Assembly (NCBI GenBank): GCA_950295325.1
Contig: OX485807.1
Span: 35,556,440-35,620,439 of the forward strand
Source of the DNA: Polytrichum commune
Lineage: Eukaryota > Streptophyta > Polytrichopsida > Polytrichales > Polytrichaceae
Direction: 5' to 3'
Length of the DNA stretch: 64,000 bases
Part shown: piece after piece, positions 3,825 through 37,358 of the stretch
Layout of the letters: each line of letters opens with the position of its first letter
Numbering within the stretch: the stretch's first letter is position 1
Translations under genes and position numbers: made by a program
The notes under the pieces: model-generated
Databases searched by the model: none
Told to the model about the DNA's origin: nothing
The model's input: the letters and a program-made list of their open reading frames with translations, nothing else

Positions 3825-6007
3825 ATACAATATTTAATGTAGTGGAGACTGGCCCAAGGTTGGCGGGCTGAGCCGTGCTTGGTTCGGTTATTTGTGGCCG
3901 CTGCCCAAGTGATGAGTCTGCCCGAGGTCATCGAAATTTCGACCCCACGCAAGGCTCCTCGTTTGTAGAGAGGTGCATGAACCCCAGTTTCATCAATTGG
4001 TGGAGTAACGTAGCAGGAGGACAAAGATTCGTTTCACAAACGCGTTTAGGGTAACTGATTTTGGGCCCTATGTATATATTAAGAAGAAGAAAAGGCAAGG
4101 GTGGGGTGGGGTGGGGGGGGGGGGTTGGTGGTAAAGAAATAGAGGATTTTGAAATGATTTTGTGGGTGGAAATTCATCAAATAGTGGCTCTTACGCAAGA
4201 ACTTGAATTCGGTTCATCTTTTAACCCTCCAAGGTTCATGCAACTCGATTTGGGTTTTGTTTGATGTGTGACTCAAGGTATGTCGAATGATGGAGCTTCA
4301 AGGGTTCAACGTAACCTTAAAGGTCAAAGGGTGTTTTTGGAAAAAATGAGATGACTTGTGATGGAAGTTGGAACACTTTCAATGTTTACATATTGTTTAT
4401 ATCAAAAGAGGTTTGACAAAACACTTCAAGATTACATTCATACAGTTGAAAGTCGAATGTAGCTTCCTAGTGTGTCGAAACCCCCCCTAGAAATCATGCA
4501 TAAGATTTTCATTGTAAATTCCTAAACTGACATTTAAGTGTATTTAACAAACCACGTGGCCAAAGTTAATAAGGGATGTGCACTTGTGGAGACAAAAACA
4601 TCAAACAACAATAGCAAAAGCAACAACACAACAATCACAACTTTGAATGTTGGTATTTCATGTTCGCCAATCACCAAATTTGTGTAGTTTTGCAATTTAG
4701 TGTACGTCATGTTGGCGGTTGGAATTACCCAAAATTTATGCAAAAGTCCAAATTGACTCAAATCCTAGTTTCGACATTGAATTTTTTTTTCTTTCAAAGT
4801 TAGGCATTATTTTGATGAAATTGTGTCCGAAGATTGAAAAAAACTAATGTGTAACGCAATTTGAAACCAATAGAACCCTCTAGTATGTAAATACTAAAAA
4901 CCTAGAACCCAAATGCAAACCCTAACAAGAATATACATGGCAGTCATTACCATACAACAACAATGGACGAAAATGTGAATTGGATGAAACTAACTCATCT
5001 ATTGTCAAGTTTTTCTCTAACCCTAAGAGCCCCTTTTTGTACATCTACCTTTCCTTCAAAAAAAATGAATAACCCTTCTAGATGTACATAGTAGAGAAAA
5101 ATAATACCTCTCCCTTATGCATAATATGTACACTAATGCCTTGAATAATAACCCACCTTACACTCACGTTAGTTTCTACGTGGTATGAAGAGGAGTCCAT
5201 CCCCTAGGCATGTACATAACTACAAGTTATAATTTGTGTAGCATATGTATATGTGATATGGCAAAGTTCAAATTAGTACTCCTTTTGTGCACTCACATAC
5301 ATTCGTATGTGTCTAGTATAGTGAACCCCCTTGGTTAAATGAACGCACTAGAGAAAATAGTACCACTCCCTTATGTAAAATATCCATGCTACTGCCTAAA
5401 GTACACCCCTTCTTACACTCACGTTAGTTCGTACATGGTATGAAGGGTCCACCTACCGAGAGTTTTGTTCCATGACTAAATGCATGACACTGAGGTAAGT
5501 GGGCTTAAAATGAACGCTTTTTGTTTTGCACCCACTTGTCTTGGGATATTAAGCATACGATTAACACAAGATGACTAGCAAAACTCGAAAAAGTGCTATA
5601 GCCCGTTTTCCTCATAATTCTTGGAGCTCATATGAAAATTGATATACAATTTTTTGCATGCTTTCACCTTTCTTTTTGAGGTTGAGACTTGTATATTGAA
5701 ACTCATTATGTATGGTTATATAGGGCCACCAATAGAATTGACCGAGTTGGTACTAGGACAACCAAGAATACGTAAAAAAAATGCTTATGTAAACTTGGTT
5801 GCATCCTTTTGGGGACCAAAAGAACCATAAGTTTAAACATACTTCTAATGTGATTGAGAATCAAGTCATGGAGGATGCTTGGACCGAATGTGGAATCCCA
5901 AGAATTTCAATTCTACTTTAATTTTGTTTGAATGCCTAACTCAAAACATCATCAATGTATGTCAAGGGCCTTATTTGACCTCATTGTCAGAGCCCCCCGC
6001 CCGCTTT
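3825..6007. repeat. Gene-free stretch with a repeated ~120-bp block
   Basis: No convincing coding region. A block starting near 5078 (AGAGAAAAATAATACCTC, then ACACTCACGTTAGTTTCTAC and a GGTATGAAGAGG-like end) recurs at 5341-5460, about 263 bp away, and again at 19560-19680, so it is an interspersed repeat with a local duplication. A 12-base G run lies at 4113-4124. The ORF at 4061-4264 reads through that tract and is not a gene. Confidence 0.45.
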
Positions 6008-16539: not shown

Positions 16540-17096
16540 CTATCTTATATTCCGAAATATCAAAGCGAAGATTTTTGTGTTCATTAAGAGATCATAATGG
16601 CCTTCCCCCCCCCCCCCCCCCCCCCACTTTTTGAGTGTTGAATCTAGAATGTTAATCATACTATGAGCATGCTGTCCAAGTTCTTTTTGATACATGTCTT
16701 TTCGGTATCCGTTTTTGGAGCCATGTTTATCCACATACCACTCAGATATGGGTGTCCGATTAAGACAAAGGACCAAATTAGCCACGTCTGCCTTGGAGAA
16801 GTTAGCATCAATTGTGGCCATGTGTGGCATTCAAAGGTATCATCACAACTAGTATTTGTGGCCCGATTCATAACCCAACTACCAAATGTCTCCTTGACCT
16901 TAAAATCTCCACACACAAAGTTCACAAACTCATGGAAACTTTCCCTCCAATTGTTGTTTAATACTTAACACACATCACCCTCAATAAATGCACACTTGAA
17001 ATGAAGCAAGTTGGGGTCCCATTAAATCACTTTTTCAAATTCCTCAGTCCACCTATTGAAAAATAGGCAATAAGTCACCTTTGCACCCCCCCCCCC
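16540..17096. other. ORF overlaps on both strands and poly-C tracts
   Basis: A 21-base C run (16605-16625) and an 11-base C run (17086-17096). Between them both strands are open for 90-100 codons (16663-16968 plus, 16540-16830 and 16656-16925 minus). None shows a known motif. The minus frame with NFSKADVANLVLCLNRTPIS is the most protein-like but reads into the poly-C tract as glycines. Probably a decayed coding fragment. Confidence 0.25.
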
Positions 17097-17233
17097 ATGC
17101 CCACACAAACAACAAGACATGTTTCTACATCAGAGCCCAACATTTTCCCCTAATTTTGCACCCATACCCATACCATGCCCATCAACAGCGACCTATGCCC
17201 ACCCATGCCCACACATAGCATGACATGTGCGCA

Positions 17234-17252
17234 CCCATGCCCACCCATGCCC
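17234..17252 (-). other. Potential G-quadruplex in hAT terminal zone
   Basis: Four CCC runs separated by 3, 1 and 3 bases on the plus strand, giving a canonical G3 quadruplex pattern on the minus strand. It lies in the minisatellite end of hAT copy 1. Confidence 0.6.
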
Positions 17253-17335
17253 ACACATAGCATGACATGTGCCTACCCATGCCCACCCATGCTATTCAAA
17301 TTGCACCCATGTATTCAAAAATTGTGTAATGTGGA

Positions 17336-17917
17336 TTACCCGCCTACACCAAGTCTTGGTTGGATCGGACAAAGAAAAGGTCGTTCACTATCGTTGGCTT
17401 CAGCCCGGAGCGCTTCTTGGTTAGCGTATTCCCTGCATCCGAGAAGTTTGACTCCGATTTGGAGTTGGTTGCAAGGATGCACAAAACCAAACGCGCCACG
17501 CGCGACATGATGGGGAATGTGGGGGCTCCTTTCAGCTTCCACCAGAATACTGAATTTAGCAGTGGTATCCCGATTCATTGGCAATGCTAAGCTCACCACT
17601 GCAATGATCTCATTTTTTTCGAGATCAGTGACCTTGTATGTCTCATACATACTGAACTCAAGCTCAATACTTGCGTTGAAGTTGCTAACAACTACGATCT
17701 CAACCCCATTGTCATGAATCTCTTCCAACCATTCAATAACCCCTTCCAATATACTTTGCTTTAGCCCATGCTCACCCATGAATAATAATATCGAACCCAT
17801 GCCCACCCATGAACAATAATATCGCACCCATGCACAGCCATGCCCGCCCATGAACAATAATATCGCACCCATGCCCACCCAAAACCCATGGGCATGGGTG
17901 GGCATGGGCATGGGCAC
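17336..17917 (-). CDS. ORF inside hAT copy 1, unknown protein
   Basis: A 193-codon minus-strand ORF. The first ~45 residues are a translation of the G-rich minisatellite (repeated MGGHG-type units) and are probably meaningless. The core contains GVIEWLEEIHDNGVEIVVVS, YETYKVTDLEKNEII and ALPMNRDTTAKFSILVEAE, with a regular strand/turn pattern. The same core stays open in copy 2 (28877-29347), with about a dozen amino-acid differences that give no obvious sign of strong purifying selection. Antisense frames are also open for ~76 codons. Family unknown. It may be a captured host fragment. Confidence 0.4.
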   Translation of the reverse strand: MPMPMPTHAHGFWVGMGAILLFMGGHGCAWVRYYCSWVGMGSILLFMGEHGLKQSILEGVIEWLEEIHDNGVEIVVVSNFNASIELEFSMYETYKVTDLEKNEIIAVVSLALPMNRDTTAKFSILVEAERSPHIPHHVARGAFGFVHPCNQLQIGVKLLGCREYANQEALRAEANDSERPFLCPIQPRLGVGG

Positions 17918-18522
17918 CCAATGTAGGGCTCTGTTCTACATGGATGTTCCTTTCTCTTTTCTTTTTCTCTATCATTTGAAGGTGACACAAAAATAATGTA
18001 AATTTATATCTTGATTGGAAACATGTTGTGGCACTATGCATAAATGACTTGCTTGAAAGAACTTGGTACCTATGTGAACTAAGTGGAATTATTTTTCCCT
18101 TTGGCAACTTTATATTTGGTTTGGGCTATTATTTCACGAATTCAAAAGCGTGGAAAATAAATATTGGTGCTTAAACATAATGATGAATGAGAGCATGTGT
18201 GCCTTACGCTAATTCGCTTATCTATGACGACTACCATGAGGCGCATTGATATGCCGTTCCCAAGCTTGTTGTTGATTCATTCCAAGAAGGTCCCATAAAA
18301 CTAAATCAAGGTGAGAGATTTGGGACCCCATGGACCATTAGAGGGGTATATCAGCTACAACTAGAATTCATTAGGGAATACAATGTTTCTCTACATTTTC
18401 ACCTCTCTCAAGGTAGATGGCATGAAACTTTACCCAGTTGAGCATGGTCGCCAATGCAACTCAAAGGTGTGTTTTCTATCCTTCAAACACAAAAATCAAT
18501 ATGAAGTTGAGTTCTAGAAGTT

Positions 18523-18523
<1 letters not shown>

Positions 18524-18557
<34 letters not shown>
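18524..18557. repeat. (ATT)n microsatellite
   Basis: About eleven ATT units. The surrounding 18.0-19.2 kb is AT-rich with no supported gene. Confidence 0.9.
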
Positions 18558-19227
18558 TGATAATATTGTCATTGATCACCTTGTGCTCAAATTAAAAACA
18601 TGTTTCCTTAACCCCCTCAAGGCATGGGGGTTGTCTACATGTCAAAGATGTATTATAATCGGTGGTTAAAAAACCTAAATTGGACGTAAATTCAAAAATG
18701 AAATTTGAACTATGAAATTTAGAATGAATCTATACAATGGAAACAAACAAGTTTGTCTTTTGATTGTTCCCAAATCATTCTTCAATTCTTACAACTTTAC
18801 AAAAAAATTATTAAAGCTTTTGTATAGCAAACTTGGACATTGAACACTCTTTATCCCAAAACTAGTGCAAAACTTCTTTTGGAGCTAAAATTGCATAAAT
18901 ATATGATCACATGCAAATAATGTGAGGCGAAGGTTAAATTTGGGACACTATACATAGTGTTTTATTAAGTTGTGTAAGTGTTCGTGGTAAATCATTATTA
19001 TGGAATATTAAAATCCTGGAGATCAAAGCCAATAATGTCCCATACTTGAGCTTATCCATTACACACCTCTTTCATTTATCAATCACCAATTGTCAACAAA
19101 TAAATGGGTTCCACCAACAAATCATCCATTGCTATATTCAACATACAATATCAAAGATAATGTTGTAGAATAATTAATTAATAAAAATAAAAATATATAA
19201 ATTTAATATCTCACAAGGTATTGGTTG

Positions 19228-19330
19228 CACTAGTAGAAAACTATGCTCAAAACAATTGCAGTCGAAATTGGTTGCGGTTTTTTTTACCAGCCTCATATGC
19301 AGTCACTTAACGATTACAGTTTTTCATTTT
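19228..19330 (+). mobile_element. CACTA-type transposon end (left)
   Basis: Begins CACTAGTAGAAAACTATGCT, close to the plant CACTA (En/Spm) terminus CACTASWAGAAAA. Subterminal words AATTGCAGTCG, GGTTGCGG and GCAGTCACTTAACG vary on one theme, as in the subterminal repeats of such elements. A matching right end was not found, so this is an end relic or a diverged non-autonomous copy. A related piece lies within 54600-54760. Confidence 0.5.
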
Positions 19331-19362
19331 TCATTTTGCAACTGAACGTTTTGAAATTTGGG

Positions 19363-19409
19363 GTGTGTAATATACTGCTGGAAAGGTATTTTCAAGACCT
19401 TTCCAATGG

Positions 19410-19448
<39 letters not shown>
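19363..19448. repeat. Hairpin with a (CA)n expansion on one arm
   Basis: GTGTGTAATATAC (19363-19375) pairs with GTATATTACACAC (19409-19421). Inside it GGAAAGGT pairs with ACCTTTCC around a 9-base loop. The CA repeat (about 19416-19448) continues directly from the right arm. Confidence 0.7.
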
Positions 19449-19449
<1 letters not shown>

Positions 19450-19699
19450 AAATAAAAATTCCTAAAATTTTAGTCGCTAAACCAAAACATAAATATACAA
19501 TCGTTAATCATTTAGCGTCTACAAATCATATTGGTCACTAATAGCCTTTTTAAATGTGCACACTGAGAAAGTTAATGCCTTTCCCTTATATATACTATGT
19601 ATGCTAGTGCCTCAAATAATACCCCTTCTTTCATTCACTTTAGTTTTTACATGGTACGAAGAGTCCATCCCCAGGTAGAATTGTAAGCTCACTAAGTTT

Positions 19700-19895
19700 G
19701 ATTTTCTTGTGCCTTGTTCATGTGGTTTGGGGGTTGTCTTGGGTTGGTGGGGTTATTTGTGATGGGTGGGTTTGTTTTAGTGTGGCAGTGTGACATGCTT
19801 GAGGGGCTCTACTTCCCCTCCAAGTGGGTGCGCCTTCTTGGTTCTTGATTCATTCTTGGCGTTGGCTTGATATTCTCATGTCTCAAAATAAGAAT
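19700..19895 (+). repeat. SINE-like repeat, 3' part
   Basis: GT-rich sequence ending GGCTTGATATTCTCATGTCT then CAAAATAAG. It resembles the tail of the SINE-like copy at 34205-34375, which ends CTTATGTCTCAAAAAAA. The tRNA-like head is not clear here. Confidence 0.3.
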
Positions 19896-20467
19896 AGTCA
19901 TAACAATCATAATTCTTAAATTGTTTTGGATTAGTCTCTAGGAGTTTCACCTACATTATATTTAATATTTAAGTAGTTGGGAGGAAAAAAGCTTCGAGTT
20001 CCTTTTTAATCCTAAAGAAGATTAGTATTTATCCAACGCCTCTAAATGTAAACACCTATATTTGTGTGGTGTGTGGTTAGATGGGGGTCTAAGAGCATAC
20101 ATCAAAAAGGCATGTGTTTAAAAGAGATTGGACTACATGCCCAAAATATATTAACCATTATAAGTTGAGGCCAATTGACACTAGATATCCAAATTCTCGT
20201 CAAGAAGCTAGAGACAGTCTTGGACAAAAATTGCTACAAATTTGAAGCGGTGAATTTTATTAAAACACATAGTCAATCTATAGGTTAGCCCATAACTGCT
20301 CATCTAAATACTATTTATTGTCTATGACGGTTGTCAAAACTCTTATGAGGGTAATCAATCACAAGCCACCACCACATAATCCTTAACTACGTTCACCTAA
20401 AAAATATAGTATTGGCATTACATGTACCTAGTGAGCAGTTAAATTAACCGGGTCAACTACAAATCTC

Positions 20468-20806
20468 GGGGGGGGGGGGCAGTGTGTTAAAAAGTTAAGG
20501 ATATACGTGCGAACAACCACTATTTTATAGGGGGGGGTATTACTTTCAATTCTCTTTTTCTTTTCACATGCTATCATTATGTAATTTTCTACTTTGGGTT
20601 AATAGAAAAATGGCTTGCATTACTTATAATTCCAAATTACCTATTATTCCATACCCTATAGTACTTTAAAGATGTCATGTGCCATTCTTGATACCCTATA
20701 TTACTCTTAAGTCCAGTTATAATTTTTGCCCCCATGTTTTTAAAATACCCTATCATTTGTTTGCACGTATATTGCTACTCCAACCAATGACTTACCCCCC
20801 CCCCCC
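20468..20806. repeat. Poly-G and poly-C tracts
   Basis: Twelve G at 20468-20479, a shorter G run near 20531, and twelve C at 20795-20806. No gene lies between them. The ORF at 20679-20894 is a chance frame through the C tract. Confidence 0.85.
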
Positions 20807-20938
20807 GAGCTACAAATGCCTCAACCTTAGGATTTCCATCTCAACTTTGATTTTTAAAATTGAAATGACAATCTACGTGATTGGCAATTGCTAACCATAT
20901 GAGACAACGCCTTAGTCAATCTAGTGGCCAACGGAATG

Positions 20939-21187
20939 AGATGATGTTTAATGCGCTACAATGGCCCATTGAGAAAACATGTCAAGTCATTTGGGATGTC
21001 TTGCAAGAATATGGTAGGATTGAGTGGCAACGGACTCTTGCGGATTTGGAGAAGGCCCCGGACATTGCCTACCAAGATGTTCTTAACGAATTCAATTCGA
21101 CTTTGGAGGGTAAAAGGTCTTATTGTGACCCATAATAACTTAATGGTCACGTGGAAGGCTAGGCCCCAAATGGGCATTATTTCTTAA
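20939..21187 (+). pseudogene. Duplicated coding fragment X, copy 1
   Basis: Plus-strand frame reading MMFNALQWPIEKTCQVIWDV, then LADLEKAPDIAYQDVLNEFN, with a break near 21105 after which another frame continues KGLIVTHNNLMVTWKARPQM. The same protein pattern occurs reversed at 52484-52762 (EKAPDMAYRDILNKFNLTWG, GLIVTHSNLVVMWKDRPQM). Conservation of residues across a frameshift shows a decayed coding sequence, probably from a transposon or captured gene. Protein family not recognised. Confidence 0.55.
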
Positions 21188-21310
21188 TGTCCCCTCGATT
21201 TGCGCTGGTTCTCCTGAGGTGATTGTATTTTAAATGTAAAAATGTAAAAATGTAAATGTAAAAATGTATAGCAACTAATTGTAATGCTAACAGTTATTGT
21301 GCCCAAATCT

Positions 21311-21460
21311 ATAACATTATTCAGATCCATAACAGTGTTTTGTGGGACTGATAGTATTCCACGGAACATTTCATGATGTTTCTCATATTCAGACCGAATG
21401 TGGAAATGTCGGGAATATTCCATGGAATATTGTCAATCCATAGAACATTGTTATGGATGT
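21311..21460. mobile_element. Hairpin MITE, family P, copy 1
   Basis: Near-palindrome of ~150 bp. The left arm, ATCCATAACAGTGTTTTGTG, pairs with the right part …CATAGAACATTGTTATGGAT. A copy with matching sequence is at 51736-51892. Both lie just 3' of a copy of coding fragment X, allowing for orientation. Confidence 0.6.
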
Positions 21461-21855
21461 TTAAATCCTCAATCCTTAAACTCTCAATTTTTCATTCAAA
21501 CTAAACTCTCAATCTTTCACTCAACCTAAACTCTCAATCCTTAAACTCTCAACAACAAGTACATGTGTTATTGGGTGATCTTGATCATAGAGTTATAAAA
21601 ATCATAGTAGGGTTGCAACAACTTTGGACTGCGTATTATCAACCATCCGTATTGTATATTATTTGCTATTGGACATATGAAATAAAATTGTGATTTTATC
21701 CTTCAAATGTTGGCCATGGTTACATCTTCGAAATGCTCAAACTTCAAACAAAACATTAGATGTAAGAATGGCTTTGGATGAAATAAAAATGAAAATCAAA
21801 TGAAATGAAAGAATTCCCGAGGGCTTTTACACAGATATTGAGAAATCTCCAAAGT

Positions 21856-22383
21856 CTTGAAATTAAGCATGTTGGTGTTGAGATGATTAATATCAACATT
21901 TGGGTGCCTCTAAATTTCTCTCATATTTTTATTTTATTTTTCTCAAATAGTTGGAAAATGATCCTCACAAAGCTTATAGCATTTTTACACCAATTTTCCG
22001 ATACCACCATAGTTTTGAAATTAATCATCTTGGTGCTAAGTTGCATAATATCAACATTTGGGTACCTCTAAGTTTCTTTGATAATTTGTATTTTATTTTT
22101 CTCAAATAGTTTTCAAATGGCATTGCAACACCACCTAGCTTTTTTACACCAATTTTGAAAACTTTCCAAAATTTTGAAATTAATCATCCTAGTGCCAAGA
22201 TGACTAATATCAAGATTTGGGTACCTCTAAGTTTCTCTCACAATTTGGTGTTTTTTTTTTGCCTCAAATGGTTTACAAATGGACCTCCTAGTGCTTCCTA
22301 GTCTTCTTACACCGATTTCTCCAAAAAATTTGAAATTAGTCATCTTGGTGTTGAGATTACTAGTATCAATGTTTGCATACCTT

Positions 22384-22433
<50 letters not shown>
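21856..22433 (+). repeat. ~158-bp tandem satellite, four units, with a (CT)n tract
   Basis: Unit marker TTTGAAATTAATCATCTTGG, followed by AATATCAACATTTGGGTACC, starts near 21856, 22016, 22174 and 22329 (spacing 160, 158 and 155 bp). The fourth unit ends in a (CT)n microsatellite at 22388-22433, in the place where other units have TTTCTCTCAC. A displaced fifth fragment is at 23020-23110. Non-coding. Confidence 0.75.
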
Positions 22434-22440
<7 letters not shown>

Positions 22441-22671
22441 TCTAGTTTTTTCAAATGATTTACTACACTAAATATACCAATTAGTGATAGTGGTACTAAC
22501 TCAAGTCACACACACAATCTCAAAGCTACTGAGGGCTAAAGTTGCTACTGAGTGACACCAAATTCATGAAGACCGTAAATTCTATATCCATTTACCATAG
22601 ATTTCAAGAAAATTAATGTGTGCCACATGTTTTTCAATTAGTAGTGTTGAGTGTTGATACTTATAGTTATT

Positions 22672-22825
22672 AGTGCCAAGTGCAAGTACTTTCATGCCAA
22701 GTGCCGATACTTTAGTGCCAAGTGCTAGTACTTTCATGCCAAGTGCCAATACTTTCATGCCAAGTGCCGGTACTTTTATGCCAAGCGCCGATACTTTCAT
22801 GCCAAGTGCCAATACGTTAAGTGAA
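22672..22825 (-). repeat. 21-bp minisatellite, about seven units
   Basis: Units of the type CTTTCATGCCAAGTGCCGATA vary at the last positions. Because 21 is divisible by three the minus strand is open and reads ALGMKV-type heptads, explaining the ORF at 22582-22812. It should not be taken as a gene. Confidence 0.8.
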
Positions 22826-23077
22826 TAATGCCAAGTGCTAAGATGAACAATGCTTCCTAGATTTTTGGTGCCACTAATTCATAGCCTAAGGGAATATAGT
22901 GTCACATTCATTAATTTCCCACCCTCATTATTTTTCCATACTCACTAATTGGTATACTTAGTGCAGTGGTTTTCAAAGTGACCTTAAATAATCTCAATTT
23001 GTTTTAAAAAAATTGTGTGCTTGGTGCCAAGGATACAAATATCAACATTTGGGTAGCCTTGAAGATAGCTTAAAATG

Positions 23078-23094
23078 TTTTTTTTTTTTTTTTT
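23078..23094. repeat. Poly-T tract (17)
   Basis: Within a displaced fragment of the ~158-bp satellite. One of only three A or T runs of 11 or more bases in the window. Confidence 0.9.
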
Positions 23095-23739
23095 CTCAAA
23101 TACTTTGTAAATGGTGGTGTCAAAACTATCGTATGTGCTCCTATGGCAAGGAGTTGTGTTGTCCTAAGTAATTAGCCAAAGGTAGAAATTGGTTGTTTTT
23201 GAGGTGGTAACCACAACTATTAGCAAAGGAGAAGATTTATGAAAGATAAATATAAGAGCAATGTTTGTAACCCTCAAGATGATTGCATAAGAAGTGGTGA
23301 TTAGGATAGTGAACCGAGGGTATCTTAGGCCACAAATCCTAGTACATACTTAGAAAGTGTAAAAGTGGGTGAGCAGTACAAGGAAGTGGTGAAGTTTTGT
23401 GGTGTACAAACTTGCTAATGAATGTACTAGTGTTGGTCCTTGGAATATTAGTTTTTGGGTTGGAAGGAAATCCTAACTTGTTTGTGGTTGTAGTACGGCT
23501 CGCCATTGTGTAAGCAATTAGTTCCAAGAAGTCTTGGAGGGATGAGACTTATGTATATTTTTCCTTCATTTTTCCTAAAATCGAGAAGTATCTACCAGAT
23601 TCGTGTTAGAGTTAAAAGGACTAATTTGGTCAACACCTCAATATCACTACCGGCTAGGGACCCACCCTCTACATTATAGTTGTGGTAATCTTGGTCATTA
23701 AGACTAACTTAGGAAGCTAGAAGTAAATATGGTAGATCA

Positions 23740-24190
23740 ATAAGGGCAAGAAGTGTATATTCACGTGTTAGAGGGTTATAACCAATGTTGGACCAGTGTA
23801 TAGGTGAATGCATGGTATCAATAATCAACATTAATAATGGTAGCAAAGAACCTACCTATGGGTATCAAAATTGTATTACCAGTTAAACATTGATATTTGA
23901 TGGGTAAGTCAAGGCGAGAGAATCTTTGTATACCCAAGTTATTATTTGGGTCAATACCATTCTAAATTATATTGATATTAGTACAATTTTACCTAGGTAC
24001 AAAGGCCCTTGCATGATATATATATATATATATACCCGAATGGTATCTAATAAAAACAATACTAGTCCAACATTGGTTATAATGTTGGCAGTACGAGAGG
24101 GAGTAAATCAAAAGCTATATCCTATAACTAGCACATAGATAAGGTTGTAAGTAGGTCAAATTTGAAGGTAGTACATCTATGAGTTTCAAC
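23740..24190 (-). repeat. Interspersed repeat D, diverged inverted copy
   Basis: Reverse complement of parts of the tandem repeat at 34897-35515: CCTAGGTACAAAGGCCCTTGC, TCTTTGTATACCCAAGTTA and CCATTCTAAATTATATTGA-type blocks match. The middle is replaced by a short (AT)n tract at 24018-24034. Non-coding. Confidence 0.5.
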
Positions 24191-26339
24191 CAATATCAAG
24201 GGGTGGGCAATACCAGTACAACCTTCAAGAATAGTATCATTGGTGACATGGTAGTCCAAACAAAACATGCATTCAAAAGAGATTTGATTACATATTCACA
24301 GTTTGTTAGCCTTTGTAAGCCCGATAGTTAACATAATAGGGAAGGGGGAGACAATTTTGATCATTTAATAAGACAAATAATATTCGTGTCAATAATAAAT
24401 AAGATGTTCATTCTAGCTTTGAGAATTATGAGGAAAATAGCTACGTGTATGCTTTACATTCATTAATCCTCTCCCAATAATCCCATGTACAATATATTAT
24501 AAGAAAGAGGGTGTAGAGCTAAGTGTGTCCATTTAAGACTCACTCACCTTATGATGGCATGGTATCATAAACTTATACAAAATAATATGTTGTCTATGCA
24601 AAAGAGATATCTAAAGTGAGGTGGACATGACACTTAATTGAACTGTACTAAGTACTAGATAATGACCATTGGGTGAATCACAAGAAAAGATAAGTACTAG
24701 ATAACCGCCAAGCAACTGATAACCGCAAGCAGGGATCCACTCCATTGTCTAACCTAATTTTCAATAGGAAAACTTTATACGCATAATTGAAATTCAAAAA
24801 AGAAAAACATGTGCATTTTTAATTTTGTGTGTGTAAGGTGAATATGTTTGAATGTGTGGTTCTCCCTAAGGAAAACACTAGGTGAAAAGGTTGGCATTGC
24901 AATCACAAAGATCACCATTTTGCGAGAAAGATATTTTAAAATGTTGAAAAAAAAAGAGGGTGCGGTTGGTCGCTTGAGTTTGCGGTTGTCCATCAAGCAC
25001 ATGAGAATATTGAGATTGTCAACGACCAAAGCCGGTCTTTGTGGCTAAACTTAGGGTGTCGGAAAGTAGAGACCCAAAATTTTGAAGCATCTTTCGGTCT
25101 TGAAAGCTATAATTGGTAATTCATATGCATGATTATCGGTTTGGCCTATGTAGGCTCACTTTGTTCACAACAAAAAGTATATAAAAGAAATGGAGGAATA
25201 TAGAAGCTAGAAAAGAAGTGTCCAAATGACAAGCCTAGATTACGATTCGAAAAATGTTCCATGCAATTCTAGCATAATCAATAAGGGTAATATCAATGGA
25301 AAAACCCATGTTGTACGGGTCACCCTACAATCCAAAAGCTTATGTATGATGGTTACCGTAGCGTCAACCATGCATATATGACGTTTGTCATCAACATCAA
25401 TGATGAACTTGGCTCTCCACAATAGGACGGATAGGGCAGCCGTTTACGACAATGTGATCGGCATGTATGACAATACATGGGGAGGAAAGGAACTTCTCTA
25501 CCACAAAGATAACACTAGAACCATGCAATGAACACTAGAGCGCTTGACGTGGGCTTAGTCAATCATGTCACATGTTACTTTAGTTCCATCAGGTGCACCC
25601 AAAAGAACTTGCCTAATTCTCCTTTTTGGGTCTCCGGTGCCTTTGTATGATTGGTTGGCACTGAAATCAAATCGTTTCAATTGTCTCAAAAAGAAAAAGA
25701 AAAGAAGTAGCCTATATTATTATTAAATTGTAAGAAGTTGCATATATACAAGAGATATTGTTTTGGAATGTCCATAGAGAGTGTTATGGTCCTTCAACAT
25801 GGCCCATTTTGTACTAAGCTTGAGGGCCCATGACCAAGCAAAATTGGAATTTATGTTACCCATGGAACAATCTCTGGATGAGTTTCAAGGACCCTTAGAA
25901 TTTCAAGATCATGGCCCTTGGTGACTCTATGTATGAAACTATTCTCAAGTCTTGAGCATCTAGACTCTCACACTTGGTACCTAAATCACATGATAAAGAA
26001 TCGTTTAAAGTACACACCATTGGTTGTCTTTATTTTTAGTGATAACAAGGGATGAATGTGCATGAATGACAACCAAAACCACAACCTCTCTTACTACTTC
26101 TAAATGATTGTGGCACATGAGGGCTTCATACTTGAAATGGTCACTTGTGGATAACTAATGATTGGCCTTTTATTGTTTTGGGTTTAAGGTGACCATCTTA
26201 GAGGATCTCAAGTTGGTCACCCAAAGTTAGAAGAAGCTCATTCCATGGTGACCAACTTGAAATGGTCATCGCCATCCAAAAAACAAGAAGACACAAACAT
26301 CAAATAATTGTTCGTCATTATTTTGGGTTGGACACCTTC
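24191..26339. other. Stretch without recognisable gene or named repeat
   Basis: ORFs 24775-25029, 24848-25048 and 25240-25422 show no family pattern. Sequence near 25790-25930 (GGCCCATTTTGTACTAAGCT, GAGGGCCCATGACCA) is faintly like PIF family B. Nothing further. Confidence 0.35.
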
Positions 26340-26870
26340 CTCTCATAGTCATGTAGTTGTTAATAACGATGAGGATAGTTGTTATGATTGTAGTTTATGT
26401 TAACTAGTTCCATTTTGTTTATAATGATTACTTGGCATTTATGGGAGAGGGTTGTAGGAGGCAATCATATGAAGATAACTTCAATGTTGTCACTAGCATG
26501 AAATATGTTGTTGCTTCATTTTCAAGTTGGTGTAAGTTTATTTGTAATCCCAAAACAAGTTTTACGAGAATTAGAGGGTCCATGATGACTATTGCCTCAT
26601 TTTGAATGTGAATACCTTGAATGGGCGGGGACAAGCTGATTGGGCAAGCCCCTAATATTTTTTCACATGGTTGGTTGAAAGTATTTGGTTCACCCAATAC
26701 CCCCTATTATGATTGGGTGGATCATAGGTGGTAAGGTGCACCAAAAATAAAGTGCTACGAGTTTCACCCATTTGAGTACTATTCTGGCATTAAGCGGCTT
26801 AACCTTGGAGTGCATGTGGCTTGTGGGATCCGGGCTCAGGCCTTGGGTTTAAGCCACCATTCCTTTATGA
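26340..26870 (+). repeat. Interspersed repeat K, copy 1
   Basis: Diverged direct copy of 42440-42960. Shared words include TGTTGTCAC, GTTGCTTCATTTTCAA, CACATGGTTG, TATGATTGGGTGGA, and a final GGGATCC…CCTTGGGTTTAAGCCAC segment that looks like a tRNA B box (GGTTCAAACC in copy 2). It could be a long SINE or a decayed LTR-type sequence. No coding motif. Confidence 0.45.
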
Positions 26871-27493
26871 ATACACTACAATACAAGCTATCAAATGGTT
26901 TACTTTATGTCTTGCACTACACCAATGGAGGGACAATCCCTCTCAATACAAGCCCATGGGGATGTAAATGCTAACATGCTTCCCTGTGCATTGGCAAGGC
27001 ATGTCAAGCTACAAGAAAAAAAATCTTGCATGCAAGGGTGCCTCTCATCCATCGAATATAAAAACTCTCACAACCCGACATGCCTTGCCCACACCTTGCA
27101 AAACGCACATTCTCAAGGGCTTATGATGTTAGGAGAAATCAATCCATTCTTCAACTACAATCACACCTTGTTCGTAAAATGCAAAGAATAGTTGTATTAC
27201 GTGGTTAAGGAGGGGCATGAATTACAACCAAAACCACTCACATGTATTGTTTCCAAACACACACATGACCTTATTGTTTGTAGGCACACAATAGTCTCCT
27301 AAAAGCTCAAGCTACTTTTGGACCTTAAAACATCAACAAGTAAGCTCTATGGTGCATTAAGTAAGACAAAGCTAAAAGCAACTGATCATACGTAACATTG
27401 AGTATAAAATAACATCATTTTGGCCAATCATAATGGAAGTGTAAGAATTGTGTTTGAATAATTAAAGAAGATCACCAACTTTGGCCAACATCA

Positions 27494-27997
27494 GTGATCA
27501 ATCTAGGACCTACCCACTCAACGAGGCTATGTAAAATGTGCTCCACAAAAGATGAAGAATACCCTCATTTAATAGAAACCGCTCACCAGTTACAAGAACC
27601 ATTTTGTGGCCGTTTTCACCTAACAATCCAACATCAATGGACCTCTCCCCTCCCCCTAATAGACAAAAAAGGCTTATATCCTGAAACAATTTTTGTAGAA
27701 CTTTGTAGGTTGAATATGGTCTTGTTTCTTTATAAATTAAACATAAACTGTTCAAACTTTCCACATTATTTGCATATTGATATAATAGTTTTGATCTTTT
27801 TGAGCTCTATAACTTATGTGAAAAATGCTCAGATTAGAGGTTTTCTCAGGGAAATAAATAAAGAAATGACCAACACGGGGCAATCCGACGTGAATTTGAG
27901 CCCATTGTCCCTACCCTACTCAATAATCCTCTTGATGCATGATGGAATTTATTGCCTACCTTGCGGTGGGTGGGCTCTTGACTTCCTACCTACCTAG
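27494..27997 (+). pseudogene. 167-codon ORF, possible LINE zinc-binding remnant
   Basis: Longest plus-strand ORF in the window. Near its start it reads RLCKMCSTKDEEYPHLIETA: a C-x2-C followed by acidic residues and H-L, the layout of the zinc-binding segment after LINE reverse transcriptases. The last cysteine is absent and the rest (hydrophobic, 27720-27830) has no match I know. It may be a chance ORF. Confidence 0.2.
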
Positions 27998-28002
27998 CTA
28001 GT

Positions 28003-28110
28003 TTTTTCCATCAAGTAGAGAGAAGATTTCACAGCAAGAATTGAACCACCAACCACTTGATTCATAAATAGGTACCTCTCCACTATCATCTGGTAGTTTA
28101 GGACCATTTT
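28003..28110 (-). repeat. tRNA-derived SINE-like repeat, copy 1
   Basis: On the minus strand a TAGTGGAGAGG A-box-like word is followed 38 bp later by GGTTCAATTC (B box), then GCTGTGAAATCTTCTCTCTA and CTTGATGG. The last block is shared with 34205-34375 on the plus strand, where the B box is GGTTCAAATCCC. Two diverged copies with a Pol III head and common body argue for a SINE family. Confidence 0.5.
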
Positions 28111-28454
28111 CTCAGGGATGTTATGCGAGCCTAGTTTGGTGTGCTTCTAGTTTTCTTTTGTGAAGAATGATGGTAGTGAGGCATTGGATGGTTGTCGTGT
28201 GTTATGTGGGTTTGAAATGAGATTATTATTAAATATAGGGGGTTATGACTATTAATACAAGGATTATGTAATGGGGAATGAAATAAGGAGTTTGGGTGAC
28301 AACTTATGATGGACCACCACATGTAGGAGGCCTCTCTATGTCTCTTTAGTATCAAATAAACTGTTTTAATAATCTTAACCACATGTTAAAAACCATAATT
28401 AGTCTAGTTGTGTGTAAAAGTGGCCTTTTAAGACTTCAATGGAGTTGGCGGCCT

Positions 28455-28655
28455 CCTACTACGGTATATGGCCCAATTGTGGGCACTTCCAACTCTACAA
28501 AACAATTTTGATAATTTGGAAGGACTCGGTCATTCCCATATGCTTAACAATTGTAAATCACAAAGACTATCACTTCAAGATTCATAATTAAAATATCGAT
28601 GTAAAGTTGTAGAAAGTCAAAGTGAGGATTACCTTTATGTTTAGGTGATCACATA
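28455..28655 (+). repeat. Interspersed repeat family E
   Basis: Starts ATGGCCCAATTGTGGGCACT, contains ACTTCAAGATTCATAATTA and ends TTAGGTGATCACATAAGG. It matches 39372-39530 directly and 1972-2170 in reverse. Non-coding. Confidence 0.55.
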
Positions 28656-28809
28656 AGGTAGAGGGTGCTAATCTCGGTCTCACATTATAAGCACACGCTA
28701 TGCATGCTTCCTAGACTTTTGACTAGAGGACACCTAGAACCGTCCTTATGTCTACGGCAGAGCCCTACATTGGGTGCCCATACCCATGCCCATGCCCACC
28801 CATGCCCAT

Positions 28810-28829
28810 GGGTTTTGGGTGGGCATGGG
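28810..28829 (+). other. Potential G-quadruplex, left end of hAT copy 2
   Basis: Four GGG runs with loops of 4, 1 and 3 bases. Confidence 0.6.
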
Positions 28830-28876
28830 TGTGATATTATTGTTCATGGGCGGGCATGGGTTCAATATTATAATGG

Positions 28877-29347
28877 GTGGGCATGGGTTCGATATTATTG
28901 TTCATGGGTGAGCATGGGCTAAAGCAAAGCATATTGGAAGGGGTTATTGAATGGTTGGAAGAGATTTATGACAATGGGGCTGAGATCGTAGTTGTTAGCA
29001 ACTTCGACGCAAGTATTGAGCTTGAGTTCAATATGTATGAGACATACAAGGTCACTGATCTCGAAAAAAATGAGATCATTGCAGCGGTGATCTTAGCATT
29101 GCCAATGAATCGGGATACCACTGCTAAATTCAGTATTCTGGTGGAAGCTGAAAGGAACCCCCACATTCCCCATCATGTCGCGCGTGGCGCGTTCGGTTTT
29201 GTGCATCCCTGCATCCAACTCCAAATCGGAGTCAAACTTCTCAGATGCAAGGAATACGCTAACCAAGAAGCGCTCCGGGCTGAAGCCAGTGATAGTGAAC
29301 GACCTTTTATTTGTCCGATCCAACCAAGACTTGGTGTAGGTGGGTAA
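28877..29347 (+). CDS. ORF inside hAT copy 2, unknown protein
   Basis: A 156-codon ORF homologous to the one in copy 1: EGVIEWLEEIYDNGAEIVVV, YETYKVTDLEKNEIIAAVI, MNRDTTAKFSILVEAER, then HHVARGAFGFVHPC, ending RLGVGG. The first ~10 codons are minisatellite. Preservation of the frame in both copies could reflect function or simply recent insertion. The substitutions I see are mostly amino-acid changing, which favours recent duplication without strong constraint. No domain recognised. Confidence 0.4.
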   Translation: MGMGSILLFMGEHGLKQSILEGVIEWLEEIYDNGAEIVVVSNFDASIELEFNMYETYKVTDLEKNEIIAAVILALPMNRDTTAKFSILVEAERNPHIPHHVARGAFGFVHPCIQLQIGVKLLRCKEYANQEALRAEASDSERPFICPIQPRLGVGG

Positions 29348-29394
29348 TACACATTACACAATTTTTGAATACATGGGTGCAATTTGAATAGCAT

Positions 29395-29475
29395 GGGTGG
29401 GCATGGGTGGGCACATGTCATGCTATGTGTGGGCATGGGTGCGCACATGTCATGCTATGGGTGGGCATGGGTGGG
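29395..29475 (+). other. Potential G-quadruplexes, right end of hAT copy 2
   Basis: Two separate GGGTGGGCATGGGTGGG motifs (29395-29411 and 29459-29475), each with loops of 1, 3 and 1 bases, within the minisatellite zone. Confidence 0.65.
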
Positions 29476-29810
29476 CATAGGTCGTTGCTGATGGGCATGG
29501 TCTGGGTATGGGTGCAAAATTAGGGGAAAATGTTGGGCTTTGGTCTATGGCACATAGCGGGGGCAAATTTTGGGAGAAAGTGGGGTTATTTTTGAGTGCC
29601 CATCGGTACATAGCTAGGGGTGTATTAATTATATATGTATTTCATTTGGAATCCCATAAAAGAAATGACAAGCCTCCCTTTTTATGTTTATTTTATTGAG
29701 TGGAGCCAAAGGGTTGATTGTGTGAATTATTGAGCCCAAAATGGTGTCTATGTTTTGAAAGCTCACACCAATCTCATCGTGTCATATGTATGTTGTTTCA
29801 TGTTCTTCAC

Positions 29811-36098: not shown

Positions 36099-36453
36099 GG
36101 GCCACTTCACACATGAGATTGAAGACTAGTATCCATTGCATTCTAAGATATCTCACTGGTCGAAAAGGCCGAGACTGTTCAAGTTCACTTCACACTAGAA
36201 GATGAAGCCAAGGGCCCAAAGAAATTATCATGGATGAAAGTCTACATGGATTCCTACACGGCTCACTGTGGATAATATTTCACGGTATGCCAAAATTTGT
36301 GTTAGGTCCACCTCCAAGTAGTAGGCTTGAGGCAAATTCCAACATACCATATCAAAGTCAAGGGCCTTAGACAATTGGTAAAACCTTTGGATGAGAGTCA
36401 AGGGCCCTCACGATTACATGATTACAACCCTTGGCTTTTGTCCGAAGTGGCCC
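36099..36453 (+). mobile_element. PIF/Harbinger MITE, family B, internally deleted
   Basis: A 355-bp element, GGGCCACTTCACACATGA to GTCCGAAGTGGCCC, flanked by TAA on both sides (36096-36098 and 36454-36456). It directly abuts the 3' part of the LINE at 36457 and probably inserted into it. Confidence 0.75.
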
Positions 36454-36456
36454 TAA

Positions 36457-37358
36457 TATGGTTAGTAGTTGCGGTTCACATAGAAGGTCATTGAGTGTTT
36501 GTGTGAATTGTTTGCTAAATGTAGTGGCATATCTTGGGAGTAGGGAGAATGCTTCAATGCCGAACGTTTTGCAAGGTAGTTGGCCAAGGATATTAGGGGC
36601 GTCTTTGGGGATGTTACATATGAATTTTATGAGTTTGATGAGGAGTTTATCCAATTTCTTGATGTCTGGGACAAAAAATGAGGCAACATAAAAGGCATAT
36701 TCGATGCCTAGGCAAATGAATGTTGAGGATCTTTGCTTTTTGTTGTAGTGATGTGGGGGATAGTAGTAAGGTCATGCTATGATATGGTGATTACTTTCTA
36801 TATGGTTCGTTTTGTGAGAGGATTGGGAGTTGTTGTTGTTTATAGTTGATGTTTTGGGTTTTAGGTATGTGGTAAATGTGAGGGGTTGTAGTTTTGATTC
36901 GTTGGTCAACCTATGACTCCGCATTTGTTTATGCCCAGTTCCATGTGTACCCAATCGAAATATTGTCTTAGTTTGTTAAGTTGGGGTTGTATGCGTTCTA
37001 TGTTGTCACTGAGGATGCCTAGGTCGTTGGTGTAGGTTGTGGTTGTGATAGTATTTGGTGAGTTATTCAAGTGAAATCCTAGTTGATCTTTCTCTAACCA
37101 TCTAAGTAGGGGTTCTAAATAGATGATGAATAAGTATGGGCTCAAGGTGTCTCTTGGATGGTTCTATGGCTGATATGAATGGGTGTTTTTGTTGTAAAGT
37201 GTACACCCTCAAAAGGATGTGGTTGATTTGGTGTAGATATTGCCGACTGGTTCAATGACATATGGTAGGTATCCAAGGTCTTCCTTTATGGCCAATAATC
37301 TAAGGTGGTTTATGAAGCCAAATGCGTTTTTAAAGTTTATGTAAGTAAGGTAGATGTC
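36457..37358 (-). pseudogene. LINE reverse transcriptase remnant
   Basis: Minus-strand non-LTR reverse transcriptase in broken frames. In coding order: IYLTYINFKNAFGFINHLRL and LLAIKEDLGYLPYVIEPVGN (37211-37357), matching the DFKNAFGSIDH-type region; then SPYLFIIYLEPLLRWLEKD (from ~37142), with YTNDLGILSD in place of the catalytic YADD motif and MELGINKCGV; then a thumb-like segment, KFICNIPKDAPNILGQLPCK and FGIEAFSLLP (36450-36654). The DD catalytic pair is degraded (TND) and there are stops and shifts, so it is dead. The 3' end is cut by the PIF-type MITE at 36453. Confidence 0.8.

Follow-up and report, generated by a model that had tools for sequence, protein, structure and literature searches.

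Introduction

In maize, Ds-del elements are short and simple internal deletions of the 4.6-kb autonomous element Ac, according to PMC3260210. For Hermes, a hAT element of Musca domestica, PMC10368747 describes a preference for nTnnnnAn target sites and BED-bound subterminal repeats. As to Hermes-type hAT elements in plants, the word 'plant' is absent from the main text of PMC8097297. A literature search listed general hAT papers, and the hAT family reported here was not seen among those listed, which does not prove that the family is unpublished.

Two inverted copies of one element were investigated in the window, a 64,000-nucleotide stretch of Polytrichum commune DNA. Both copies are almost certainly non-autonomous and derived by internal deletion from a cut-and-paste DNA transposon of the hAT type, with a transposase resembling Hermes in sequence. 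The genome also holds a RuBisCO large subunit (482-codon frame on C8), which points to a plant or another phototroph.

Results

Ends and bounds of the two copies

Both elements end in CAGAGCCCWACATT, as short terminal inverted repeats starting with CA. With up to 2 mismatches allowed, this end was located at four sites in the window, which were exactly the four ends of the two copies; shuffled windows had a mean of 0.89 sites, and none of the 100 shuffles attained four. The two inverted copies with common ends described in a first-pass annotation were thus confirmed. The start given there for copy 1 was correct, and its end was one base short (17933, not 17932). The copies were spaced 10.8 kb apart and shared 96.3% identity across 779 aligned bases; their features are listed in Table 1. 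Clean 8-bp target duplications had been claimed for both, and this was exact for copy 1, while the flanks of copy 2 matched at 7/8 positions. Dimer_Tnp_hAT matches in both copies, together with the CA-starting ends and the 8-bp duplications, upheld the earlier assignment to hAT.

Table 1. Coordinates of the features of both copies (positions in the window)
Feature	Position	Strand	Remark
8-bp target site duplication TTCTACAT, left of copy 1	17123..17130	.	
Copy 1, hAT internal-deletion derivative, 803 bp	17131..17933	-	
Copy 1 terminal inverted repeat CAGAGCCCAACATT, element 3' end	17131..17144	+	
Copy 1 3' subterminal region, CCCATGCCC/ACCCATG repeats	17145..17343	-	Presumed transposase-binding, by analogy with Hermes and Ac
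Copy 1 transposase C-terminus relic (Dimer_Tnp_hAT), past 5-bp deletion, including stop codon	17344..17543	-	
Copy 1 transposase C-terminal relic, upstream of 5-bp deletion, first-pass frame	17544..17728	-	
Copy 1 5' subterminal repeat region	17729..17919	-	
Copy 1 terminal inverted repeat CAGAGCCCTACATT, element 5' end	17920..17933	-	
8-bp target site duplication TTCTACAT, right of copy 1	17934..17941	.	
Target site duplication GTCTACGG, left of copy 2	28750..28757	.	
Copy 2, hAT internal-deletion derivative, 785 bp	28758..29542	+	
Copy 2 terminal inverted repeat CAGAGCCCTACATT, 5' end	28758..28771	+	
Copy 2 5' subterminal repeat region	28772..28954	+	
Copy 2 transposase relic from codon 569 on, first-pass frame	28955..29139	+	
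Copy 2 hAT dimerisation region relic, out of first-pass frame, including stop codon	29140..29339	+	5-bp deletion at about 29139/29140
Copy 2 3' subterminal repeat region	29340..29528	+	
Copy 2 terminal inverted repeat CAAAGCCCAACATT, one mismatch, 3' end	29529..29542	-	
Target site duplication GTCTATGG, right of copy 2	29543..29550	.	

Full-length element in the same genome

At C5:19121909-19126955 lies an element of 5,047 bp that shares its ends with the window copies; both ends had 0 mismatches, and the 8-bp duplication was exact (GCATGTAG). It carried an open frame of 697 codons matching Dimer_Tnp_hAT and the Hermes DNA-binding domain DBD_Tnp_Hermes of Pfam, the latter at 24.9 bits (cut-off 20.5). 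It was the one apparently intact transposase frame seen, and the 2.8 kb upstream of it may hold further exons. Comparison of the full transposase with PDB gave Hermes (5.3e-47) in an alignment starting at residue 33 and spanning the cysteine region, and cysteines and a histidine fall within it; zf-BED of Pfam was not matched at E 0.1. LDLWTD (from 203), VADCGSN (from 273), and SKSESNF (from 659) also aligned with Hermes, and we take them to be the putative holders of the catalytic D, D, and E. The dN/dS of the full element against L002 was 0.054/0.241, and that of the intact element against broken long copies was about 0.23-0.26. The full element is apparently an intact, autonomous-type hAT with a transposase that is Hermes-like by sequence.

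The window copies aligned to about 1-237 and 4520-5047 of the full element and lacked the middle of about 4.28 kb, in agreement with the non-autonomous status proposed earlier. GAATG occurred on both sides of the deletion junction in the full element and was single in the window copies.

Copies of the family and their target duplications

Two similarity searches supplied the loci, one with the window copy, in which 40 of 710 candidates were scored, and one with the dimerisation region, in which 150 of 281 were scored. The resulting set held 89 tail-bearing loci, a choice that favours tail-keeping copies, and both ends (up to 3 mismatches) were present in 64 of them. Where one locus had several end pairs, the best value of duplication minus end mismatches was taken, so the following counts lean toward good duplications: 8/8 in 46 of the 64 end-paired loci, 7/8 in 11, 6/8 in 4, and fewer in 3. 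The first-pass annotation was right about the 8-bp duplications. The swapped-flank control (3,660 combinations) gave 8/8 in 1, 7/8 in 22, and 6/8 in 133. The nTnnnnAn pattern was present in 34 of the 46 exact duplications; 39 of the 46 had T at place 2, and 39 had A at place 7.

A good duplication was present at 61 end-paired loci, of which 60 were derivatives and the 61st was the full element. All 60 lacked the middle of the element and were internal deletions, and in all 60 the tail aligned to the full element. Their 3' breakpoints were at 17 distinct places, two of which were common to 27 and 14 copies, and some derivatives contained stretches unalignable to the full element, e.g., about 185 bases in L036. 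The remaining 28 of the 89 loci lay outside these counts: in 25, one end or both were missing from the fetched stretch, and the other three, L004, L006, and L077, had paired ends with a duplication below 6/8.

At least 48 end pairs were obtained from 67 left ends (C1 and part of C2), using 100 of 486 and 100 of 481 sites per end pattern, all with 0 mismatches; their lengths were 168-4,024 bp (median 426). Thirty-four of the 48 listed end-paired copies were 500 bp or shorter, which is too short for both ends plus the whole 129-codon tail.

Searches with the flanks of the two copies, scoring 40 of 51 and 40 of 240 candidates, found no empty site spanning the insertion point; they matched only dispersed repeats ending short of the insertion points. 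This result among the scored candidates neither supports nor weakens the reading of the copies as deletion derivatives.

Selection on the transposase tail

Selection on the tail was tested in three frames by context-matched permutation. The first run (82 loci) included probable tails of longer copies, seven of which (L009, L012, L014, L020, L025, L038, and L039) adjoin transposase-core matches; the test was therefore rerun on end-paired derivatives only. Significant constraint on the tail was absent in both runs. The ratio for the 11 full-tail derivatives was 1.01, with no significant purifying selection, in contrast to the dN/dS of about 0.23-0.26 between the intact element and the broken long copies. 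A ratio near 1 and stops in most copies had been named in the first-pass annotation as observations that would refute its reading; the former was obtained, and a stop or frameshift occurred in only 9 of the 26 DNA-chosen derivatives.

The KP element of Drosophila is a dominant-negative regulator, and the C-terminal tail might likewise be kept as a short dimerisation-domain repressor of the full transposase, which we consider very improbable. It is equally improbable that open-tail derivatives, as distinct from the frameshifted window copies, yield a free-standing dimerisation-domain peptide poisoning the transposase multimer; if they did, the family would limit itself. In 17 of the 26 DNA-chosen derivatives the tail, as counted, was free of stops and frameshifts, and over the last 67 codons the singleton ratio, read in the transposase frame, was low without reaching significance (0.67, P 0.10, in the 26 DNA-chosen copies; 0.73, P 0.11, in 60 copies), which allows weak selection. 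For the 82 loci of the first run, a less clean set, this ratio was 0.72, with the lowest P obtained in the transposase frame (0.064). However, changes in these codons common to several copies gave ratios of 1.29 and 1.03, the full-tail set was without constraint, the window copies are frameshifted, and the 34 short pairs on C1 and part of C2 have no room for the whole tail. The loci were also chosen by tail similarity, so that retention of the tail is partly ascertainment.

Relation of the two copies to each other

It is very improbable that the window copies are the two arms of one segmental inverted duplication and not separate insertions. Their inverted orientation, their spacing, and a 5-bp deletion that they alone share among the 89 loci would fit such an origin; however, their target duplications differ, and their inverted similarity stops at the element ends or within 5 bases of them, with no homology found well beyond the target duplications in this comparison.

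Open frames in the window copies

The first-pass annotation had reported an ORF of about 150 codons open in both copies, regarded as not a recognisable transposase and as a captured or lineage-specific gene. The frame was indeed open, with 199 codons stop to stop in copy 1 (17336-17935, minus strand) and 157 codons in copy 2 (28874-29347, plus strand). A host homologue was sought by Pfam and by a genome DNA search with the window copy; the frame as read had no Pfam match above the cut-off (154 of 199 codons in copy 1, 157 of 157 in copy 2). A second open frame, overlooked earlier, was present in both copies (17344-17574, minus; 29109-29339, plus); over the 3' half, this is the frame of the transposase. 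Dimer_Tnp_hAT (PF05699) was matched in this other frame of both copies (2e-16 and 2.4e-17), and copy 2 matched Hermes in PDB (7.4e-8).

The 5' half of the long ORF is in-frame transposase, nearly identical to that of the full element. Halfway, the ORF leaves the transposase frame because of the 5-bp deletion, and its 3' half is the dimerisation region of the same transposase read out of frame. The supposed unknown gene is a frame-shifted leftover transposase tail, from codon 569. A non-autonomous element with a captured or lineage-specific host gene, which the frame of more than 150 codons open in both copies and its lack of a Pfam match would suit, is as good as ruled out by Dimer_Tnp_hAT in the other frame, the transposase identity of the first half, the 5-bp deletion, and the alignment of the tail to the full element in every derivative.

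Discussion

The two copies and their relatives form, with very little doubt, an ordinary hAT system of the autonomous/deletion-derivative kind, comparable to Ac and Ds-del. The window copies retain 14-bp inverted repeats and subterminal CCCATGCCC-type repeats, which would be the ends that a transposase needs. A transposase supplied from elsewhere may mobilise the short copies in trans: it would bind their putative transposase-binding subterminal repeats, excise the copies, and reinsert them at 8-bp nTnnnnAn sites. The internal deletions may have arisen by faulty repair at short matches following excision.

Like the hAT MITEs, which reportedly include mar of Drosophila, the window copies are short non-autonomous hAT elements with paired ends; unlike them, many copies here still keep the transposase tail, by which their parent is traceable. 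With maize Ac/Ds, as presented in PMC3260210, the moss family shares ends common to derivatives, subterminal repeats, and 8-bp duplications, but its ends are different and its subterminal repeat is of the CCCATGCCC type, not AAACGG. Compared with Ds-del, deletion derivatives are common in one genome here (60 of 61 loci). The nTnnnnAn target pattern and repeat-rich ends resemble those of Hermes, as given in PMC10368747, and the transposases are homologous; however, the host is a plant and not an insect, the transposase has 697 codons versus 612 residues, the ends and repeats are other ones, and zf-BED of Pfam is unmatched, though the region aligned to Hermes includes cysteines and a histidine.

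These observations require no new mechanism. What reads as a 'conserved unknown ORF' in a short transposon can prove to be the remnant of a transposase that has lost its frame. The hAT family documented here in a single plant genome comprises a 5-kb element that is apparently intact, long copies that are broken, and deletion derivatives with many different breakpoints, and it is useful for the study of how such derivatives arise and amplify.

The reading frame in copies 1 and 2

The window contained two inverted hAT elements of about 0.8 kb, at the positions given in the first-pass annotation bar one base, and both ended in CAGAGCCCWACATT. The earlier assignment to hAT was confirmed by a second frame in each copy, which matched Dimer_Tnp_hAT (table below) and, in copy 2, also the Hermes transposase in the PDB (7.4e-8). 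The long frame noted at first, open from stop to stop over 199 codons in copy 1 and 157 codons in copy 2, gave nothing above the Pfam cut-off (154 of the 199 codons used in copy 1). Up to KFSIL, nearly every residue was the same as in the intact transposase; after it, 5 bp were absent from both copies, which throws the ORF out of the transposase frame and explains the blank Pfam result. The proposal of a captured gene was thus refuted, the ORF being transposase sequence followed by a frameshift; Dimer_Tnp_hAT in the second frame and the comparison with the intact transposase also ruled out an unknown gene.

Features of the window and the full-length element
Feature	Position	Strand or orientation	Description
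Copy 1	17131-17933 (803 bp)	opposite to copy 2	exact duplication TTCTACAT
Copy 2	28758-29542 (785 bp)	opposite to copy 1	duplication GTCTACGG/GTCTATGG, 7/8
Second frame, copy 1	17344-17574	minus	Pfam Dimer_Tnp_hAT, 2e-16, 60 bits (cut-off 21.4)
Second frame, copy 2	29109-29339	plus	Pfam Dimer_Tnp_hAT, 2.4e-17, 62.9 bits (cut-off 21.4)
Full element	C5:19121909-19126955 (5,047 bp)		both 14-bp ends, 0 mismatches; GCATGTAG on each side
Repeats left of copy 1	16838-17090		parts of dispersed repeats
Repeats left of copy 2	28459-28657		parts of dispersed repeats
Tandem array	21825-22282		159-bp unit, 2.9 copies, 78% matches; further diverged unit to about 22395
Tandem array	22674-22815		21-bp unit TGCCAAGTGCCAATACTTTCA, 6.8 copies
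Open frame	36367-36771	minus	134 codons

Origin of the two copies and other window features

The element end (up to 2 mismatches) was found at four places in the window, all being ends of the two copies; none of 100 shuffles of the window reached four. Copies 1 and 2 shared 96.3% identity over 779 aligned bases. Their inverted similarity stopped no more than 5 bases from the element ends and their target sequences were unlike; therefore, they were two insertions. Among the 89 loci examined, the 5-bp deletion occurred only in these two, so both probably descend from one non-autonomous mother.

The left flanks held parts of dispersed, SINE- or MITE-like repeats of about 200 bp, with mostly 69-79% identity elsewhere in the genome (best 40 of 51 candidates for copy 1, best 40 of 240 for copy 2). 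Among the same candidates, no empty site was found for either copy. The 134-codon frame, which we take to resemble part of a LINE-type protein, had no Pfam match at E 0.01.

The full-length parent element

The full element, on C5 of the same genome (407.8 Mb), carried an open frame of 697 codons (GTG as the listed start, first ATG at codon 5) that matched Dimer_Tnp_hAT (1.2e-17) and DBD_Tnp_Hermes (1.6e-5) and aligned to full-length Hermes (5.3e-47); zf-BED gave no Pfam match at E 0.1. The window copies matched about 1-237 and 4520-5047 of this element, in which GAATG lay on both sides of the junction; the copies had a single GAATG there.

A genome search with a 300-residue stretch of the transposase core gave 29 matches, some being pieces of a single copy. 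The C5 copy alone had a complete stop-free match inside a 698-codon open frame; the other complete stop-free matches lay in frames of 405 codons (C3:46973598) and 369 codons (C6:35602685), and the rest were partial or stop-bearing. Two broken long copies, C4:54394791-54395681 and C4:54438775-54439665, lay about 43 kb from each other in opposite orientation and agreed in both score and stops; C4:50793900 and C4:50856187 formed a similar pair. Either inverted segmental duplication or the assembly itself may account for these pairs.

Deletion derivatives in the genome

The two end patterns occurred 486 and 481 times genome-wide (backward controls, 0 and 1). Both ends were present in 64 of the 89 examined loci bearing the tail, the C-terminal part of the transposase (87 elsewhere plus the window copies). 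Duplications among these 64 were 8/8 in 46, 7/8 in 11, 6/8 in 4 and lower in 3. Flanks paired across different elements (3,660) gave 8/8 in 1, 7/8 in 22 and 6/8 in 133, so 6/8 is weak by itself. The pattern nTnnnnAn, stated as the target preference of Hermes (PMC10368747), fitted 34 of the 46 exact duplications.

The element middle was absent from all 60 derivatives with a duplication of at least 6/8. After merging of 3' breakpoints up to 4 bases apart, 17 remained, two of them accounting for 27 and 14 copies, which suggests that deletion recurred often and that a few of the resulting forms later multiplied. Some derivatives, such as locus L036, had stretches not alignable to the full element. 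Shorter copies comprised 48 end pairs of 168-4,024 bp (median 426) among the sites listed for C1 and part of C2.

Selection on the tail and the full gene

In 11 DNA-chosen derivatives with a full tail, 17 of the transposase-frame singletons were silent, 44 were missense and 1 was a stop; the same mutation contexts predicted 17.1 silent and 44.9 non-silent changes (ratio 1.01; other two frames, 1.37 and 0.97). For the last 67 codons, singleton ratios were 0.67 (26 copies, P 0.10) and 0.73 (60 copies, P 0.11), shared changes gave 1.29 and 1.03, and the singleton ratio was 0.72 (P 0.064) in a first set of 82 loci, which was less clean. Constraint on the tail was significant in none of these sets, though the final 67 codons may be weakly constrained. 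A stop or frameshift was counted in the tail of 9 of the 26 DNA-chosen derivatives.

Between the intact element and the long broken copies L002, L004 and L005, dN (0.054-0.061) was well under dS (0.23-0.25), showing that the gene was constrained where complete; dN/dS among the three was about 0.34-0.55.

Proposed mobilization

The elements form a hAT family, novel at most in its family name, whose arrangement of autonomous element and deletion derivatives is like that described for maize Ac / Ds-del. RuBisCO large subunit occurred in the genome, on which ground the host is taken to be a plant. Repeats of the CCCATGCCC type were abundant in the subterminal regions. In the full element, the first 240 bases contained 12 occurrences of four 7-letter forms of these repeats and the last 138 bases contained 3, with none in the intervening 4.67 kb; the 62,380 window bases outside the two copies contained 28. 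Since such repeats are described as binding transposase in Ac (PMC3260210) and Hermes (PMC10368747), transposase from the intact copy may recognize the deleted copies through them and would then move these copies.
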